This document shows, in pieces, positions 2,381 through 13,631 of a DNA stretch of 35,837 nucleotides (positions are counted from its first letter, which is position 1; each line of letters begins with the position of its first letter). Origin of the DNA: Bacteroidota bacterium (lineage in GTDB: Bacteria > Bacteroidota > Ignavibacteria > UBA10030). The notes under the pieces are model-generated. The model was not told the origin of the DNA and ran no database searches. It saw nothing but the letters and a program-made list of their open reading frames with translations. The position numbers and the translations under genes are program-made. Location: the NCBI GenBank assembly GCA_016928255.1, contig JAFGLB010000156.1, forward strand, positions 1 through 35,837. Direction: 5' to 3'.

Positions 2381-2688
2381 AATGCAGCGGGAGCAGGGAG
2401 GGTAATAACAATCTATAGGATTTACGGGTCTGTCGCAAGACAATTTCTTAAAATGATTGGCTGAAAGATATTTTTAGGTACCCGAAACGATCCTTCGGTA
2501 AATAAAAAACTTTTCTATATCCGTCTTGAATATTAGTGAAAGAACAAGTATAATGCATTAATTAAAAAAAACGGAATTTGGTATTAATAGACGGTTACTC
2601 AGAACAAAGTAATTCTCTGTGCAGAAAACAATAATTAAACTGGATTCCGATGTAATTCCCGATGTCTAAAATGGAGGATAATGCAATT
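2381..2688. other. Gene-free stretch before the Hdr operon
   Basis: About 300 bases with no supported gene. It becomes AT-rich toward the operon and must contain the promoter of the DsrE-TusA-Hdr genes, but I cannot point to a certain -10/-35 pair or operator. It also marks the border between the accessory stretch and the long conserved operon. Confidence 0.5.
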
Positions 2689-3114
2689 ATGGAAAGAAAA
2701 AAGATGTGCCTGGCACTTTTTAGCGGCAGTTTGGATAAGCTGACTGCAGCGGGAGTTATTCTAAGCGGTGCAGCAGCGGACGATATGGATGTGGATGTCT
2801 ATGTGCTTCTGCAAGGAGCTCGGGCATTCAAGAAAGAAATAGGCGACAATCTTGAACAGCTCTCAATGGCGGAAAATGCGAACCTGAAAAAAGAGTTTAT
2901 AGAATCTCTGAGTAGACTTAAAGTCAAGACTTGGATTGAATTTTTTAGGGAAGCTAAATCACTGACTAATGTGAAAATTCATATCTGCGGTTTAGCGGGA
3001 AAAATATGGGGCGGTGAAAAATTGGAAGATTTTGTCGATCTGGCTGATGATATATGCGGAATTAACGCTTATATTACCAGTGCACAAGAAGCGGATATTC
3101 ATTTGTTCATTTAA
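2689..3114 (+). CDS. DsrE/DsrF-like sulfur-trafficking protein
   Basis: The protein (about 141 residues) has the DsrE/DsrF-like fold seen in sulfur-relay proteins: an N-terminal strand and loop (MCLALFSGSLDKLTAAGVILSGAAADDMDVDVYVLL), a charged middle helix region, and the C-terminal VKIHICGLAGKIWGG...DDICGINAYITSAQEADIHLFI, where the cysteine of HICG lies in the position typical of the reactive cysteine. DsrE-type proteins pass sulfane sulfur to or from TusA, and tusA is the next gene. The ORF track starts at 2662; I prefer the ATG at 2689 because homologous proteins begin close to this KKM-hydrophobic strand and a GGAGGA lies upstream, though its spacing is slightly long. First gene of the operon; cytoplasmic. 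Confidence 0.75.
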   Translation: MERKKMCLALFSGSLDKLTAAGVILSGAAADDMDVDVYVLLQGARAFKKEIGDNLEQLSMAENANLKKEFIESLSRLKVKTWIEFFREAKSLTNVKIHICGLAGKIWGGEKLEDFVDLADDICGINAYITSAQEADIHLFI

Positions 3115-3129: not shown

Positions 3130-3381
3130 ATGACCATAGAAGAATTGAAGGAATTGAAAGCAAATAAAACTGTAGATGCCCGCGGTACAGCTTGTCCCGG
3201 TCCATTGTTGGAGGCTAAAAAGACTATCGGTACTATACAGGCCGGCGATATCATGGAAGTTCTCTCGGCTGATGAAGGCAGTAAAGTGGATATTCCGAAG
3301 TGGTGCACAAAACAGGGTCATGAATACTTAGGTACGATAGAAGAGAGCGGCTATTTCAAGATATTCCTTAAAAAGAAATAG
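3130..3381 (+). CDS. tusA: TusA-family sulfur carrier
   Basis: An 83-residue TusA/SirA-like protein. It shows the family signature DARGTACPGPLLEAKK with the sulfur-carrying cysteine at about residue 22 (CPGP), followed by GDIMEVLSADEGSKVDIPKWCTKQGHEYLG. TusA binds sulfur as a persulfide and hands it to partner enzymes. In sulfur-oxidising and sulfate-reducing organisms, TusA genes accompany Dsr and Hdr genes, and here it sits between a DsrE-like gene and Hdr/Qmo subunits with only 15 bases to its neighbour, so a role delivering or accepting sulfur for this complex is more likely than tRNA thiolation. Ribosome-binding site aaaagga precedes the ATG. Confidence 0.9.
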   Translation: MTIEELKELKANKTVDARGTACPGPLLEAKKTIGTIQAGDIMEVLSADEGSKVDIPKWCTKQGHEYLGTIEESGYFKIFLKKK

Positions 3382-3386
3382 CAGGT

Positions 3387-3788
3387 GTGCCGGTGGTTAA
3401 AAAGAATAACGCCAGGATTCTCGTATTTTCTACAGAAAAAATTTCAGATCCTGCCATAGATATGGCAGGACTTTTAAAGCTGTATTATCCTTCGAAGGTA
3501 TATACTATCGCGGTACCTTGTTCCAGTGCTATTAAACCACGCTGGATTTTACATGCCTTTAACCAGGGTTTTGATGGAGTCTTTATTGCCGCCGACGGCA
3601 GTGATTGTCCCTATGGAGAGTCTTGTACTGCAAAGACCGGCATCCTGGTCAAACAAACTCATGAGTTGATGAAAGAAAAAAATATCAATCCAGCCCGCCT
3701 GAAAATGGCAGCGATTTGCTCAGTTTGCAGCGAATCGTTTGTCAAGCACATGAAAAGCTTTAATGAAGCACTGCAGAAAGGTAAATGA
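3387..3788 (+). CDS. MvhD/FlpD-like iron-sulfur subunit
   Basis: This 133-residue protein resembles the MvhD/FlpD (F420-non-reducing hydrogenase delta) family, which passes electrons into HdrA. It keeps the frame of the family: ILVFSTEK...DMAGLLKLYYPSKVYTIAVPCSSAIKPRWILHAFNQGFDGVFIAADGSDCPYGE. The cysteines normally found near the N-terminus (FxCxWC) are absent (FSTEKISD) and the first Cys of GCHPGDC is replaced (AADGSDC), while PC, DC and a C-terminal CSVCSE remain. So cluster binding must differ from classical MvhD or be lost. The start is GTG at 3387; a second GTG at 3393 is possible. It lies between tusA and hdrA; in QmoB this domain is fused to the HdrA part, whereas here it is separate. 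Confidence 0.72.
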   Translation: MPVVKKNNARILVFSTEKISDPAIDMAGLLKLYYPSKVYTIAVPCSSAIKPRWILHAFNQGFDGVFIAADGSDCPYGESCTAKTGILVKQTHELMKEKNINPARLKMAAICSVCSESFVKHMKSFNEALQKGK

Positions 3789-3792
3789 TTCT

Positions 3793-5100
3793 ATGGCTGC
3801 AGTTGAAAAGCTGAGTTTCGACGTACTCGTTGTGGGCGGAGGTATTGCCGGTATCGAGACAGCCATAAACCTGGGTAACAACGGGCTTAATGTTCTTTTG
3901 GTTGAAAAAGACCTGACACTGGGCGGCAAAATGATTATGCTGAGCAAAGTGTTTCCTACTTTGGATTGCGGTGCTTGCATCACCACTCCTAAGATATCTG
4001 AAGTCGCGCGTCATCCCAATGTAACTATCTTTACAAATACGGTGATAAAATCGATCAAGAAGCAAGACATGCATTATTTCAAATCTTTGCTCGTTCGCAA
4101 TCCCCGATATGTTATCGAGAGTGCATGTACCGGCTGTCAGCTGTGTGAAATGGCATGCCCGGTAGTCGTTCCGGATCAATACCAGTACGAGATGGTTGGA
4201 CGTAAAGCTGCATATATACCTTTCAGCATAGCCTGCCCGCGAGTGGCGGCTATAGATATAGAACACTGCACTTTATGCGGTGCTTGTGAACGTGTTTGTC
4301 CGCCTAAATGTATCGATTTTACTCAAGAACCTATCGAGTTCCAGGTAATTATCAAAGCGGTGATTATAGCCACCGGTTTCAATCTATTCGATCCGGCTCA
4401 AATCAAGCGTTTCCAATACGGCCAGGCTAAAAATATAATTACAGCTATGCAGATGGAGCGTCTGCTGGCGCCGACACGGCCGTATAATCACGTGCTGCGT
4501 CCGGGTGACGGAAAAATTCCCGACAAGATTGCCTATGTATTGTGTGTCGGTTCGCGTGACCGTACAGTGAACAATCCTATCTGTTCACAGATTTGCTGTA
4601 TGTATTCCATTAAGCAAGCGCAGCTTCTGATGGGTGCACTGCCTATGGCGGACGTAACTATATATTACATCAACATTCGCTCGTACGGAAAAGGATTCGA
4701 AGAATTCTACGAGCAAGCTAAAGGGATGGGTGTGAACTTTATCAAGGGCAAAGTAGGTACAATAAGTGAAAAGGAAAATGGCAGTCTTATTTTGCGTTAC
4801 GAGGATATATGTACCGGAAAACTGAAGGAAGCTGAGCATGACCTTGTTGTTTTATCGGCAGGAGTACTTGCCAATCAAGATGCGACCGGTTTTTTTTCTG
4901 ATGATCGCTGGGAGAAAGATGAGTTCCATTTTGCCAGACAAAATGATTTATTCTTCAATCCGGCTTTGAGCAGCATTGAGGGAGTTTTTCTAGCAGGCAC
5001 AACTTACGGTCCGATGGATATTCCTGATACTATACTGTCGGCAGGAGCCGCTTCTATGGAAGCGATTCGATATATCAAACAAATGGCCCTGAAGATATGA
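3793..5100 (+). CDS. QmoA/short HdrA-like flavoprotein
   Basis: A 435-residue FAD protein of the HdrA/QmoA family. It opens with the FAD-binding motif VVGGGIAGIE (residues 13-22) and then FPTLDCGACITTPKISEVARHPNV, the conserved cysteine region (C59, C62) of HdrA/QmoA. Two ferredoxin motifs follow: CTGCQLCEMACP (112-123) and CTLCGACERVCP (159-170). The C-terminal half is FAD-binding (ICCMYSIKQAQL, EGVFLAGTTYGPMDIPDTILSAGAASMEAI). Length fits QmoA better than full HdrA of about 650 residues. The ORF track starts 10 codons earlier inside the upstream gene; I use ATG 3793, just after that gene's stop. It overlaps the next gene by ATGA, implying coupling. Probably the flavin hub of a Qmo-type complex. 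Confidence 0.88.
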   Translation: MAAVEKLSFDVLVVGGGIAGIETAINLGNNGLNVLLVEKDLTLGGKMIMLSKVFPTLDCGACITTPKISEVARHPNVTIFTNTVIKSIKKQDMHYFKSLLVRNPRYVIESACTGCQLCEMACPVVVPDQYQYEMVGRKAAYIPFSIACPRVAAIDIEHCTLCGACERVCPPKCIDFTQEPIEFQVIIKAVIIATGFNLFDPAQIKRFQYGQAKNIITAMQMERLLAPTRPYNHVLRPGDGKIPDKIAYVLCVGSRDRTVNNPICSQICCMYSIKQAQLLMGALPMADVTIYYINIRSYGKGFEEFYEQAKGMGVNFIKGKVGTISEKENGSLILRYEDICTGKLKEAEHDLVVLSAGVLANQDATGFFSDDRWEKDEFHFARQNDLFFNPALSSIEGVFLAGTTYGPMDIPDTILSAGAASMEAIRYIKQMALKI

Positions 5101-7031
5101 GCAAAAAAATCGGCGTATATATTTGCCGCTGCGGCTGCAATATCTCGGACTATGTAGATGTGGAAAAAGTTCGGGCGAGCGCAGAAAAGGAAGCAGACGT
5201 AGTTTTGGCGAAGACTATGGTATTTGCTTGCGCCGATTCAAGTCAAAAGGAGATTATAAACGATATCCAGAACGGGGTGATTAACTCTTTCGTCATAGCT
5301 TCCTGTTCGCCCAAACTGCACCTGCCTACCTTTCAGGCTGTGGCTGAGAGGGCCGGATTGAACAAGTATGAGTATGTACACGCTAATATAAGAGAGCAGG
5401 CATCTTGGGCTCATTCAGACGATAAAGAAGGCGCTACGGCTAAGGCAGTCCAATTAGTGAGAGCCGCCATTGCTAAAGTCCGTTTTGCCACAGCGATCGA
5501 GCCAATCGAGATACAGACACAGCAAGCTGTTTTGGTTATAGGTGCAGGTGTGGCAGGCATGAAAGCCGCTACATCTCTTGCTAAGATGGGAGTAAAAGTA
5601 TATCTAATTGAAAAAGAACATTTCATAGGCGGCCGAGTTGCACAGTGGGATGTTCTCTGCCTCACAGAAGAAACCGGTAAGGATTTGGTTACCCGTTTCT
5701 ATAACGATGTTGTGATGGACAAGGATATCACGCTGTTTACCGGCGCTGAGCTGATCGAAAGCAGCGGCAGTAAAGGCAACTTCAAGGTAAAGATTAAAAT
5801 CACACCGCGCTACATTAAAGATTTCTGCGAAAAGGAAAAAATGCGCCGGGCAATAGAGGTTTGCCCGGTCGAGGTAATCGATGATTTTAATTTTTCCATT
5901 ACAAAACGTAAAGCTATCTATCACAACTTTCCGAGTCAGTACCCGCTGGTTGCAGTGATCGATATGAAGAATTGTACACGCTGCGGCAAATGCGAAAAGG
6001 AATGCGATAAGATTGATTTTTCCCAGAAAGAAAAGATTATCGAGATCGATGTTGGATCGATCCTGGTTGCGACGGGATTTGACCCATACACGCCTAGAAA
6101 AGGAGAGTTTGGATATGAGGAGTATGACAATGTTATCACTTTGCCTCAGTTCAAGCGCCTGGTCGCAATCAACGACAAGGAGTTAAAATGGAATGGCCGG
6201 CAAGTTAAGACTATTGCATATATCTACTGTGTCGGCAGTCGTCAGCTGGAAGGTGAGAATAAATACTGCTCTCGCTATTGCTGCTCGACAACAATCTGTG
6301 CCGCGATCAAGGCAGGAGAAAAATTCCATGATCTTTCTCATTTTCACTTTACACGAGGTATCCGTACCTACGGCAAACAGGAAATGTTCTTCTATGAAGC
6401 CTCGAAACAAGGTCAGGTTTTTCTGCAGTCCTTTGAAGATGAACCGCCACGAGTAATGCGAAAGAACGATCGTACCATCGTTTGTATAAATGATATTCTA
6501 ACTAATCGAAGAGAGATTGAAGTTGATGCCGATCTTGTTGTACTGGTTACCGGTATGGTACCGCGTTCTCATGGACGAATCAGCGAAATCTTGAAACTCC
6601 CTCGAGGCCGGGATCGGTTTTTCAATGAAATCCATATGAAGCTCCGTCCGGTAGAAACTGTGATTGATGGTGTTACCATAGCTGGTGCCTGCCAGGGTCC
6701 GCAGAATGTCGTGGAAGCTATAAATTCCGCCCTCTCGGCAGCAATTAAATCCTACTCATTCGTCAGCCGGGATACACTGCAGGTTGAGCCGATTGTGGCC
6801 GAGATTGATGCCGGACTGTGCACATGGTGCGGAGCCTGTGCTAAAGCTTGTCCATTTGATGCTGTTACTCAAATCAACTTAGAAGGTAAAGAGATTGCCT
6901 CTGTAAACATGACAGTCTGCAAAGGGTGCGGTATGTGTCTGCCTGTCTGCCCGGTAAACGCTATCCAGTTGAAAACATTTAGTGATGATGAAGTAGAGAA
7001 GATGATCGGAGTGTTGGCCCAGGAGCTGTAA
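5097..7031 (+). CDS. Full-length HdrA/QmoB-like iron-sulfur flavoprotein
   Basis: A 644-residue HdrA-family subunit. Order: an N-terminal HdrA domain (VYICRCGCNISDYVDV, ASCSPKLHLPTF, ANIREQASW), an FAD domain beginning VLVIGAGVAGMKAATSLAKMG near residue 143, an inserted ferredoxin-like motif CTRCGKCEKECDKIDF, and a C-terminal 2x[4Fe-4S] ferredoxin (CTWCGACAKACPFDAV and CKGCGMCLPVCPVNAI). Together these transfer electrons through several clusters and can support flavin-based electron bifurcation in methanogen HdrA. It starts in the ATGA overlap with the previous hdrA-like gene. With the short HdrA it forms a pair like QmoA-QmoB, but the MvhD part of QmoB is encoded separately upstream. Whether it bifurcates electrons is inference. 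Confidence 0.87.
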   Translation: MSKKIGVYICRCGCNISDYVDVEKVRASAEKEADVVLAKTMVFACADSSQKEIINDIQNGVINSFVIASCSPKLHLPTFQAVAERAGLNKYEYVHANIREQASWAHSDDKEGATAKAVQLVRAAIAKVRFATAIEPIEIQTQQAVLVIGAGVAGMKAATSLAKMGVKVYLIEKEHFIGGRVAQWDVLCLTEETGKDLVTRFYNDVVMDKDITLFTGAELIESSGSKGNFKVKIKITPRYIKDFCEKEKMRRAIEVCPVEVIDDFNFSITKRKAIYHNFPSQYPLVAVIDMKNCTRCGKCEKECDKIDFSQKEKIIEIDVGSILVATGFDPYTPRKGEFGYEEYDNVITLPQFKRLVAINDKELKWNGRQVKTIAYIYCVGSRQLEGENKYCSRYCCSTTICAAIKAGEKFHDLSHFHFTRGIRTYGKQEMFFYEASKQGQVFLQSFEDEPPRVMRKNDRTIVCINDILTNRREIEVDADLVVLVTGMVPRSHGRISEILKLPRGRDRFFNEIHMKLRPVETVIDGVTIAGACQGPQNVVEAINSALSAAIKSYSFVSRDTLQVEPIVAEIDAGLCTWCGACAKACPFDAVTQINLEGKEIASVNMTVCKGCGMCLPVCPVNAIQLKTFSDDEVEKMIGVLAQEL

Positions 7032-7050: not shown

Positions 7051-7329
7051 ATGAAAGACGAAAAGCGGGAAACTTATAAAATAAAGCGAGACTCTTTTCA
7101 AGTCGCACAAGAAGTCAAAGACAGCTTGAAGCAGTTCAACGCCGTTAAAAAAAAGATTTTAGATGCAATGGGCAATGAGGGTTGTACTATTCCACAGATT
7201 GCCGCTCAGACGGGAATAAACCGTTCAGAAGCACTTTATTATGTTATGTCTATGCTGAAATTTGGCTGGATACAGGTAGTCGGTGTCGATGATAAGGATG
7301 AGTATTATATTTATCAAGGGAAAAAATAA
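7051..7329 (+). CDS. Small winged-helix protein of the Hdr operon
   Basis: This 92-residue protein has an N-terminal charged helix and a helix-turn-helix (MGNEGCTIPQIAAQTGINRSEALYYVMSMLKFGWIQVV) ending in a strand pair (DDKDEYYIYQGKK), the layout of a winged helix. Such a small DNA-binding-like protein is unusual between two electron-transfer subunits, and it is tightly packed: 19 bases after the HdrA gene and its last bases touch the start of the membrane subunit gene (7329). It could be a local regulator, or the winged helix may serve as a protein-protein part of the complex; the sequence does not decide. I do not recognise a named family beyond the fold. Confidence 0.7.
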   Translation: MKDEKRETYKIKRDSFQVAQEVKDSLKQFNAVKKKILDAMGNEGCTIPQIAAQTGINRSEALYYVMSMLKFGWIQVVGVDDKDEYYIYQGKK

Positions 7330-8411
7330 TGTCAAGCCCGGATCTGAAATTTGGGAAAAAACTGGTAAAATACGGTGCCGTTGACTTTAACGCATGCTAC
7401 AACTGCGGGACTTGTACAGCCGTTTGCGCTCTGTCGAATGAGGAAGAATCATTTCCACGAGAAATGGTACGTTTCAGCGTTCTGGGACTCAGCGAGGATG
7501 TCAAGGGATCGCTGAAACCATGGCTTTGCTATTACTGCGGCGAATGCTCAACGCACTGTCCGCAGCTTGCTCAGCCGGGTGAGCTTATGATGTCGCTGCG
7601 ACGCTATCTTATATCCTGCTATGACTGGACCGGACTTTCCGGGCTATTGTACCGGAATCTATCAGCATATATCGCAGCTTTTCTGTTTATTGCCATAGGT
7701 ATTTTCGGATTGTTTTTCTCCGGCATTTGGAATCAGGCGGAATGGATGCATTACGGACACCTCTTTGAAATAATGGCCATTGCCTCCGTCTTTACAGTCA
7801 TTCTCCTGCCGAATATAATACGAATGTGGTACGCAACGGTTTGGAAACAGACAAAAAAACTGCATATCAAAACCTATTTTCTATCTCTCCCCGAGTTATT
7901 TATACATATGTTCACTCAGAAGCGCACTTTGTCATGTAATGATGAAATGAGCAACAAGATCTGGTGGTTTGAACATTTTATCGTCGTGATTGGCTACATG
8001 GGTTTACTGTTTACCACTGTAGTTTTGGATTGGTTCGCTGCTACAAATATATTAATTATTGTCCTTGGCTACTTTCTCAGTGCTGTAGTTTTTATTGTCT
8101 CATTTCACTTTATCTTCAATCGCATGCGTAAGAAAACGGAAAAAAGTTCTTTTTCACACCCTTCCGATTGGTTTTTTGTGATTTGGCTCTTACTAATGGG
8201 ACTTTCAGCTTGTGCTGTCAGGTTACTGATCGACCTTGGATTACTCTCAGCATACTTTTGGCTATACCTGCTACATCTTACTATACTGGTACAATGGGCT
8301 CTGGTTATTGTCCCCTTCGGGAAATGGACACATTTTCTTTATAGATCTTTTGCTATGTACTTTGATAAGATAGTTAAAGACACAGCTAATACTGCGGTTC
8401 GTACCGTCTGA
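7329..8411 (+). CDS. QmoC-like HdrC/cytochrome b fusion
   Basis: A 360-residue membrane protein that combines an HdrC-like part and a NarI/HdrE-like part, as in QmoC. The N-terminus holds two [4Fe-4S] motifs, CYNCGTCTAVC (23-33) and CYYCGECSTHCP (67-78), with the HdrC-type SFPREMVRFSVLG between them. From about residue 110 there are roughly six hydrophobic segments with histidines in or near them (HYGHLFE, WWFEHFIVVIGY, LLHLTILVQW, GKWTHFL) suited to bind heme b. The role would be to exchange electrons between membrane quinones and the cytoplasmic HdrA pair. It starts on the last base of the winged-helix gene and is the last gene of the operon. Fourth Cys of cluster one is followed by Ala rather than Pro, which is common in HdrC. 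Confidence 0.87.
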   Translation: MSSPDLKFGKKLVKYGAVDFNACYNCGTCTAVCALSNEEESFPREMVRFSVLGLSEDVKGSLKPWLCYYCGECSTHCPQLAQPGELMMSLRRYLISCYDWTGLSGLLYRNLSAYIAAFLFIAIGIFGLFFSGIWNQAEWMHYGHLFEIMAIASVFTVILLPNIIRMWYATVWKQTKKLHIKTYFLSLPELFIHMFTQKRTLSCNDEMSNKIWWFEHFIVVIGYMGLLFTTVVLDWFAATNILIIVLGYFLSAVVFIVSFHFIFNRMRKKTEKSSFSHPSDWFFVIWLLLMGLSACAVRLLIDLGLLSAYFWLYLLHLTILVQWALVIVPFGKWTHFLYRSFAMYFDKIVKDTANTAVRTV

Positions 8412-8740
8412 CGGCTTTATTTAGGTCTTCACTTAAATGTTTCATACTACATCTTATGCATTAGTACGTTTTTTCTCCTCTTGCGGCTTGATTGACTAGT
8501 ATAATTTCCATTGAGAAGTATGTTGCTTATCCCGTATTTTATTCGGAATTATTTCTGTATGCCCTTTTGTGTTTAATCTTATTTAGTAATTAAAGCATAA
8601 CGAGTTCTATCTGTATGAAACAGAAGAAAAACGTATAAATACTTTGGTTCAGGTGTCTTAGATGAGTAATATTGGTATATTATTCTCAACAATGATTTAA
8701 TTACCGAAGTAACAGAACACTTTTGTGAAGGGTAAGTGAA
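8412..8740. other. Gene-free stretch after the Hdr operon
   Basis: AT-rich sequence with no supported gene or clear hairpin terminator. The minus-strand ORF at 8579-8809 overlaps the start of the next gene and has no homology-like character, so I leave it out. A promoter for the membrane ferritin-like gene probably lies in the last 100 bases. Confidence 0.45.
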
Positions 8741-9613
8741 ATGAATATAAGTGAGCAACTGCGCAAGAAACTGCTCGTCTTTCAAAAAAATGAAATAACC
8801 GAGCATCACATCTACACAAAGCTGGCGAAGAGGATCAAGGTTCCTGAGAATTGCCGGATACTGGAAAACATAGCCGAACAGGAATTACAGCATTACCATA
8901 CCTGGCGAACTTATACAAAACAGGATGTACAACCATCGACTTGGAGAATCTGGAAATATTATTGGATCAGCCGTATCTTCGGATTTACCTTCGGCGTCAA
9001 GCTGATGGAACGCGGGGAGGAAGATGCTCAGGGCAGTTATGAGCAGCTGAAAGACGTTATTCCCGAAGCAGAAGCCGTCATACGTGAAGAGAACCAACAT
9101 GAGACAGCTTTGCTCAAACTGCTGGACGAAGAAAAGCTGCGTTACACAGGTTCAATGGTTTTGGGCCTGAATGATGCACTGGTGGAGCTAACCGGTGCAC
9201 TGGCGGGTCTGACTTTAGCACTACAAGATACAAAGCTGATTGCCCTGACAGGTTCTATCACCGGCATTGCGGCCGCATTGTCGATGGGAGCATCCGAGTA
9301 CCTGTCAACGCGTGCCGAGGAAACTGTAAAGAATCCGTTGAGGGCGTCGATTTATACAGGCGTGACCTATCTGGTCACTGTGCTGCTTCTAATTTTGCCT
9401 TATCTGATTCTAGAAAATTACTATTTATGTTTAGGCTGCACGCTGGCCGAGGCTATTATAATCATTGCCTTGTTCAACTATTACATCTCGGTAGCCATGG
9501 ATAAACCGTTCGGAAAGCGATTTCTTGAGATGGCCGGATTGAGCCTGGGCATTGCAGCGTTCAGTTTCTTTATAGGCTTTCTTATGCGCACTTTTCTGCA
9601 TATTGATATCTGA
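8741..9613 (+). CDS. Ferritin-like/VIT1 membrane metal transporter
   Basis: A 290-residue protein with two parts. Residues 1-130 form a ferritin/rubrerythrin-like four-helix region with metal-ligand motifs NEITEHHIY, EQELQHYH and EENQHE. Residues 135-290 are a VIT1/CCC1 membrane domain (LGLNDALVELTGALAGLTLAL, AALSMGASEYLSTRAEE, then three hydrophobic helices). This architecture is that of MbfA-type proteins, which bind and export iron or manganese and protect against oxidative stress. The start has a good ribosome-binding site (gaagggtaagtga). It is alone, 330 bases after the Hdr operon; the association with Fe-S-rich genes may reflect iron handling but is only inference. Confidence 0.87.
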   Translation: MNISEQLRKKLLVFQKNEITEHHIYTKLAKRIKVPENCRILENIAEQELQHYHTWRTYTKQDVQPSTWRIWKYYWISRIFGFTFGVKLMERGEEDAQGSYEQLKDVIPEAEAVIREENQHETALLKLLDEEKLRYTGSMVLGLNDALVELTGALAGLTLALQDTKLIALTGSITGIAAALSMGASEYLSTRAEETVKNPLRASIYTGVTYLVTVLLLILPYLILENYYLCLGCTLAEAIIIIALFNYYISVAMDKPFGKRFLEMAGLSLGIAAFSFFIGFLMRTFLHIDI

Positions 9614-9758
9614 GCAATCCGGAACTGTCAAGAAAACAATCTGTATGTCGGGGAAGTCAAATCTGTTTACCTTAGGAACCGGTCGGCCGACCTGATCTTC
9701 ATTTAGTTGTATAGAAGTACTTGCCAAACACCATAATTTATTGTAAGTTTATATATAT

Positions 9759-9782
9759 AAAATGTTAAACGTTTAACATTTT
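9759..9782. promoter_or_regulatory. 24-bp palindrome, likely LacI operator
   Basis: AAAATGTTAAAC|GTTTAACATTTT is a perfect palindrome with the central CG and the symmetric half-sites typical of LacI-family operators. It lies 38 bases before the ATG of a LacI-type gene, so autoregulation of the operon is the simplest reading. No second copy was seen in the window. Confidence 0.75.
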
Positions 9783-9820
9783 CTTCAATTAATTATCAAT
9801 TTGCAGTGAGGCGGTTCTAC

Positions 9821-10819
9821 ATGCTGACTATTCGCGATGTAGCAAAAAAAGCTAAAGTCTCGGTTATGACTATCTCCCGTGTTATTAATAATCCGGATAA
9901 AGTAAGCGCTAAAACTTATCAGGAAATCTGTCAGACAATGGAACATCTTGGTTACCAGCCGAGTCACATTGCGCAATCACTTGTTAGAAAAAGAACCTAC
10001 ACTCTTGGTGTTGTAATGCCGAATATCAAAAATACTTTTTTTAACAGCTGGTTTCGAAGCTTGGAAGAACATGCAAAATCTTTTAACTATACCCTGCTAT
10101 TAGGCGACACCGGTGAGGATATCAAGCATGAAATGAATCATGTTCGTTTACTGCATTCTCACAGGGTTGACGGTATTATTATTGTTCCGCATTCCTGCGA
10201 TACTGTATCTTATTTAATAAAATCTAAAATGCCGTTTGTTGTAGCGGACCGATTTATCCCGAAAGTTAAATCTGATTATGTTTTAACAGATCATTATGCC
10301 GGCGCATTTGAGGCTGTGGAGTATCTTGTTTCGCTTGGTCATAAAAAAATTGCGGTATTGAAAGGTCCGGGATTGATTTATCCCGATATAGAACGATTTC
10401 GCGGATTTTTAGATGTTATGAAAAAACATAATATCAAAGATCCCGAGTTATATGTTAGAAACTGTGATTTTCAGGAATCGCTGGCATATGAAGCTGTCAA
10501 AGATCTGCTCGGAAGACGAGATCCTCCAACAGCTATATTTTCTTTCAATAGTATAATGACAATTGGAACGATCAAAGCCGTCCAATCTATGAAGCTTTCT
10601 ATTCGGGATAATATATCACTGATAGGATTTGACGCAATTCCAGGTCAGTCAATTTTTAGACCTGCAATAACATATGTCCTGCAACCGATAGAAGATCTTG
10701 CAAGAAACGCGGTTCAAATATTATTAAAAAAAATTGAACATCCAAATAGCAGGAAAAAATATAGATTATTTCTAAAACCGAAGTTGATTATTGGCGAATC
10801 CTGCGGATACGTTAAATAG
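9821..10819 (+). CDS. LacI-family transcriptional regulator
   Basis: This 332-residue protein begins with the LacI DNA-binding region (MLTIRDVAKKAKVSVMTISRVINNPDKVSAKTYQEI) including the recognition helix and hinge (IAQSLVRKRTYTLGVVMPN), followed by a periplasmic-binding-protein-like effector domain (VDGIIIVPH, GHKKIAVLKGP, ISLIGFDAIP). The ORF track begins at GTG 9806; the ATG at 9821 has a GAGG 9 bases upstream and gives the standard N-terminus, so I use it. A perfect palindrome upstream is a strong candidate for its own operator. The effector is likely a sugar or sugar phosphate linked to the next two sugar-nucleotide genes. Confidence 0.92.
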   Translation: MLTIRDVAKKAKVSVMTISRVINNPDKVSAKTYQEICQTMEHLGYQPSHIAQSLVRKRTYTLGVVMPNIKNTFFNSWFRSLEEHAKSFNYTLLLGDTGEDIKHEMNHVRLLHSHRVDGIIIVPHSCDTVSYLIKSKMPFVVADRFIPKVKSDYVLTDHYAGAFEAVEYLVSLGHKKIAVLKGPGLIYPDIERFRGFLDVMKKHNIKDPELYVRNCDFQESLAYEAVKDLLGRRDPPTAIFSFNSIMTIGTIKAVQSMKLSIRDNISLIGFDAIPGQSIFRPAITYVLQPIEDLARNAVQILLKKIEHPNSRKKYRLFLKPKLIIGESCGYVK

Positions 10820-13331: not shown

Positions 13332-13631
13332 ATGGTGAGTTACAGCAAAATCAGTTATCATGACAACTTTTTGAACGGCAGAAAGTGTGTATTTTGCGGA
13401 TCGTTCAAAGTCTGTACAACAAAACGTGGATATGTAAAATGCAATAAATGCCAGAGACAAAAAGGAAGCCATCTTCTTCGCCGGGAGTTGAAAATCACAC
13501 TTGGTTTTTATCAACAACAACCGGCGTATCGATTGGCGAGCGATCTTGGCATAAATTATAAAACAGTCATGCGAGTCTATATAACTATCGTGGTGTTTCA
13601 AAATATCATTTTCCTATGTATTTTAAAATAG
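13332..13631 (+). pseudogene. Transposase N-terminal fragment (IS1595-like)
   Basis: A 99-residue ORF with a zinc ribbon (CVFCGSFKVCTTKRGYVKCNKCQRQKG) and a following helical segment (FYQQQPAYRLASDLGINYKTVMRVY) like the N-terminal region of IS1595-family transposases. Such transposases run to over 200 residues with a catalytic DDE-type part, which is missing here; the reading frame degenerates after MRVY. I saw no terminal inverted repeats or target-site duplication. It marks an old insertion between the sugar-nucleotide operon and the NapH-like gene. Confidence 0.65.

Follow-up and report, generated by a model that had tools for sequence, protein, structure and literature searches.

What role does a small helix-turn-helix protein play in the interior of an otherwise redox operon? 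The question is raised by DNA from a Bacteroidota bacterium (assembly GCA_016928255.1, contig JAFGLB010000156.1, positions 1-35,837, forward strand); the window is the whole stretch of 35,837 nucleotides that was analysed.

The operon and its small gene

Seven genes lie on the + strand in the order DsrE-TusA-MvhD-HdrA(short)-HdrA-wHTH-QmoC, where wHTH is the winged-helix protein. The first encodes a DsrE2-like sulfur carrier/transferase (2662..3114; Pfam DrsE_2, E = 4e-9; 82% identical to the copy in the closest relative, L003), for which an inner ATG (MERKKM) may be an alternative, true start. A TusA-family sulfur carrier (3130..3381; Pfam TusA, E = 1.5e-23) and an MvhD/FlpD electron-transfer subunit (3387..3788; Pfam FlpD, E = 6e-28) follow. 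Next are two flavoproteins: one short and HdrA/QmoA-like (3763..5100; NCBIfam HdrA2, E = 1e-135 over part of the model), whose start likely lies at 3793, judging from the L003 sequence; and one full-length and HdrA/QmoB-like (5097..7031; NCBIfam HdrA2, E = 3e-166).

The winged-helix gene (7051..7329) encodes 92 residues, as supported by its open reading frame, a family profile and an AlphaFold model. It begins after a gap of 19 nt from the HdrA end at 7031, and its stop codon shares one base with the start of the QmoC-like gene (7329..8411), in the sequence TAATG. The original prediction, which placed a 92-residue helix-turn-helix protein inside a redox operon and against the start of the membrane subunit, is confirmed in these respects. 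The QmoC-like protein carries two 4Fe-4S motifs and a membrane domain with conserved His, and these Cys and His residues are invariant in the alignment. It matches NCBIfam qmoC (NF038018) at E = 4e-43, with 148 bits against a curated cut-off of 300. With two HdrA-like flavoproteins and a membrane subunit of the HdrC/E type, the operon has the composition of a QmoABC system.

Other features of the window include a ParE toxin/Phd-YefM antitoxin pair at its left end (244-823, -) and a rubrerythrin-VIT1 fusion 330 nt 3' of QmoC (8741-9613, +), which resembles the iron exporter MbfA; the corresponding L003 site has no such fusion. A short frame at 13332-13631 (+), with a zinc ribbon and a helix-turn-helix like the N-terminus of IS1595-type transposases, is perhaps a remnant; it has no Pfam match at 1e-3.

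Distribution and conserved position

L003, from Candidatus Aminicenantes, holds all seven genes in identical order. Its winged-helix protein is 70% identical to that of the window, and for the remaining six proteins identity is 74-85%. The winged-helix gene is absent from 5 sampled genomes of the window's genus and from about 26 others of its family. This absence from relatives, together with the high identity across phyla, suggests horizontal transfer.

Profile searching of 396 genomes of the Aminicenantes phylum recovered 25 members of the winged-helix family. Two more came from these genomes with a QmoC profile, and three from searches directed at the phylum and class of the window. The sampling covers two phylum-level groups, each species being represented by a single genome, and counts from related genomes are not independent observations. 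In 28 genomes, window included (24 from the Aminicenantes phylum and 4 from the window's class), the gene sits immediately between those for HdrA and QmoC, and across these loci in both groups the identity of the protein falls to about 20%. The original prediction had proposed asking whether the gene keeps its place in homologous operons; it does so in the window and 27 further genomes. The adverse result that it had named, absence from most homologous operons, is seen only outside one clade of QmoC.

In two loci, L170 and L171, the gene instead lies 3' of HdrC-HdrB, an arrangement read on L171 and matched by spacing in L170. A further member, L169, sits at the end of a broken contig. Profile matches outside Hdr loci included none that were convincing: the weak remainder is TetR/ArsR-like, four candidates (L030-L032 and L181) were rejected on this ground, and the L182 match has no Hdr neighbour. 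Among the plasmids searched, QmoC relatives were absent and a single distant HdrA was present.

Coupling and co-inheritance with the redox genes

The winged-helix gene is translationally coupled to its neighbours in most loci. Its overlap with the QmoC start is -1 or -4 in most, and its overlap with the HdrA stop is -4 to -11 in many. Such start/stop overlaps would favour a fixed stoichiometry. The gene on the 5' side encodes a long HdrA in 25 loci and a short HdrA in three (L110, L111 and L114).

The winged-helix gene is also co-inherited with one clade of QmoC. Mapped onto a tree that comprises 70 QmoC-like proteins, 43 of them homologues without the gene, its presence requires 3 changes versus 21.6 for shuffled labels, and none of 500 shuffles gave a value as low. 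Co-inheritance within an operon is by itself no demonstration of binding.

Substitutions among the neighbouring genes show which partners are constant. In L110, NiFe-hydrogenase genes replace TusA/DsrE and the winged-helix gene is retained; it is likewise retained in L170 and L171, though HdrC-HdrB stands in for QmoC. Because L110 has hydrogenase genes in place of TusA/DsrE, HdrA and either QmoC or HdrBC are the constant associates; the sulfur carriers are not. TusA is present in 20/22 operons with the winged-helix gene versus 0/30 without it. This linkage was rejected as non-significant, because the tree offers only 2-3 independent contrasts; L110 and L114 also carry the winged-helix gene without TusA.

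In none of the loci found is the winged-helix domain fused to HdrA or QmoC, which counts against a subunit role. One candidate fusion to HdrA in L009 (a frame of 571-599 aa) was rejected: HdrA is in a different frame, and the long frame is an open high-GC frame.

Three further arrangements were observed among related loci. The L110 operon encodes the large and small NiFe-hydrogenase subunits plus MvhD within its HdrA-wHTH-QmoC genes (7373-10401, -). L173, a second, HdrA-MvhD locus within its genome (G000:C203:1-11190), has an HdrC-like gene and no winged-helix gene. In many related operons (L101:3615-6413 and L183:3542-6253, for example) the short HdrA contains an inserted stretch, NAD(P)H-binding and GltD/NfnB-like, some 450 residues long; the window has no such insert.

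A winged helix with ArsR kinship

The predicted structure confirms that the 92-residue protein is a winged helix. The AlphaFold model has a mean pLDDT of 87, with a helix-helix-helix-strand-strand order and a long N-terminal helix pair. Searched alone, the window protein matches no Pfam or NCBIfam family above its cut-off. Because its single-sequence helix-turn-helix matches are sub-threshold (HTH_IclR, E = 9e-4), it is the family profile and the model that support the winged-helix label. Weak matches recur among 26 members, to HTH_20 in 21 and to HTH_5 in 15.

Fold searching returned only generic winged helices (ArsR, SmtB, MarR and others; best E = 2e-3). The best matches include SmtB and E. 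coli 3cuo (YgaV). Four operons (L113, L117, L170 and L171) encode a separate ArsR protein at the operon head, 5' of tusA; the two of these that were scanned both exceed curated Pfam and NCBIfam cut-offs. Aligned to these four by hhalign (94.9%), the winged-helix family is a remote homologue, a kinship that counts against a subunit role. Across 27 sequences of the family, wing tyrosines 85 and 88 are invariant. The ArsR proteins of L171 (1432-1800, +) and L170 (9416-9856, -) carry Cys close to each end of the fold (HADFC/EAC type), like sulfane-sulfur sensors such as BigR; the BigR match scores 57.7 bits, below the cut-off of 155.

Regulator, sensor or assembly factor?

The main rival explanation is that the protein is an ordinary ArsR/IclR-like autoregulator of its own operon, encoded inside it by chance. 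Its winged-helix fold and remote ArsR homology would fit this role, as would the lack of any other regulator within the fetched stretch at most loci. The recognition helix (residues 57-67) argues otherwise. It contains K/R in 2 of 27 members, and its mean content is 2.3 polar/basic and 1.3 acidic residues, versus 6.0 and 0 in the four operon ArsR proteins. The S-Q-H polar face of the latter is gone, and hydrophobic and acidic residues are gained, so that the helix is not of the polar/basic, DNA-reading type of ArsR/SmtB proteins. This charge and polarity evidence is suggestive, not proof. The upstream DNA of the window and L003 likewise contains no shared inverted repeat or operator palindrome, four operons already encode the separate ArsR at their head, and the internal, QmoC-coupled position is fixed. 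Together these observations make an autoregulator unlikely. With its DNA-reading surface apparently lost, the protein is more likely to be dedicated to the complex, as a part or a controller, than to act as a gene switch.

The original prediction also proposed that the single Cys of the protein (EGCTIP) senses redox state or persulfide. This residue adjoins the start of helix 2 of the helix-turn-helix in an operon with sulfur carriers, which would suit a sensor. The alignment that was to reveal a conserved Cys instead shows Cys at position 45 in the window protein only (1/27), with A/K/R/L/M/Q/H in the other 26, including Ala in the 70%-identical protein of L003. Since 20 of the 27 also have no Cys at all, the proposal is rejected for the family, and a Cys sensor appears highly improbable; neither the conserved Cys nor the metal ligands of ArsR/SmtB sensor sites are found. 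A factor that helps to assemble or mature QmoC or HdrA, without belonging to the finished complex, would likewise be small, QmoC-coupled, non-catalytic and missing from other QmoC clades. Against this, the gene is retained where soluble HdrC-HdrB replaces QmoC, and the protein has no homology to known maturation factors, which leaves such a role quite improbable.

Relation to known systems

The fold of DsrD is a winged helix. DsrD is described, in the portion of PMC10591310 that cites Ferreira 2022, as an allosteric activator of DsrAB and a small protein of dsrABD operons. Both proteins are small, cofactor-free, of winged-helix type and encoded in dissimilatory sulfur redox operons, but here the partner genes are Hdr/Qmo, not dsrAB. 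Identity with DsrD was rejected: Pfam and PDB profile searches gave no DsrD match, and the Pfam matches listed for family members do not include PF08679. A search of 50 genomes, run without a positive control, detected no DsrD; dsrA is absent from the window genome and present in 7 of 30 carriers of the winged-helix gene.

The ArsR/SmtB proteins BigR, YgaV and sHdrR share the homologous winged-helix core, whereas the present family has an altered recognition face, no conserved sensor Cys pair and an internal, QmoC-coupled place. Type II QmoABC is closer to HdrA, occurs with or without Dsr, and is of open function (PMC10504309). The window operon resembles it in its HdrA-like QmoA/B and QmoC-like subunit, an assignment made by resemblance; it differs in adding TusA, DsrE, a separate MvhD and the winged-helix gene. 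In the sHdr cluster shdrC1B1A-H-C2B2, a protein of unknown function, sHdrH, is encoded just 3' of hdrA (PMC11582611). The likeness lies in gene position, and that sulfur-oxidising cluster has no QmoC. The open-licence literature yielded no paper combining hdrA, qmoC and helix-turn-helix.

A proposed role in the HdrA-QmoC complex

Taken together, the protein is probably a dedicated, non-catalytic component of a type II Qmo-like HdrA-MvhD-QmoC complex, a former ArsR domain that has given up DNA reading. The original suggestion of a structural or redox-responsive part is supported in part, by the conserved internal place, the constant Hdr-Qmo association and a helix that is not DNA-reading; its redox Cys is not. 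We infer physical binding, the identity of the bound subunit and an allosteric action.

The proposed mechanism would involve: an HdrA-MvhD-QmoC complex usually supplied by the sulfur carriers DsrE/TusA; an ArsR-type domain that abandoned sequence-specific DNA reading; and conversion of the hydrophobic and acidic former recognition helix, with the invariant-tyrosine wing, most likely into a protein-docking face. Docking would occur on the HdrA core or at the HdrA-QmoC/HdrBC junction, in fixed stoichiometry. Once bound, the protein could stabilize or allosterically tune electron transfer, much as DsrD acts on DsrAB. More tentatively, this unnamed family derived from transcription factors may supply HdrA-QmoC with an integral subunit of allosteric or docking function, the second such case after DsrD.

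The function of type II Qmo/Hdr complexes is not settled, and a small, constant partner would provide a handle for purification and for finding what controls electron flow. The gene tags one clade of QmoC and may serve as an annotation marker, and labels such as "HTH regulator" within redox operons can mislead. If the proposal is true, a winged helix would directly control a redox enzyme of sulfur metabolism, with DsrD as the one earlier instance.
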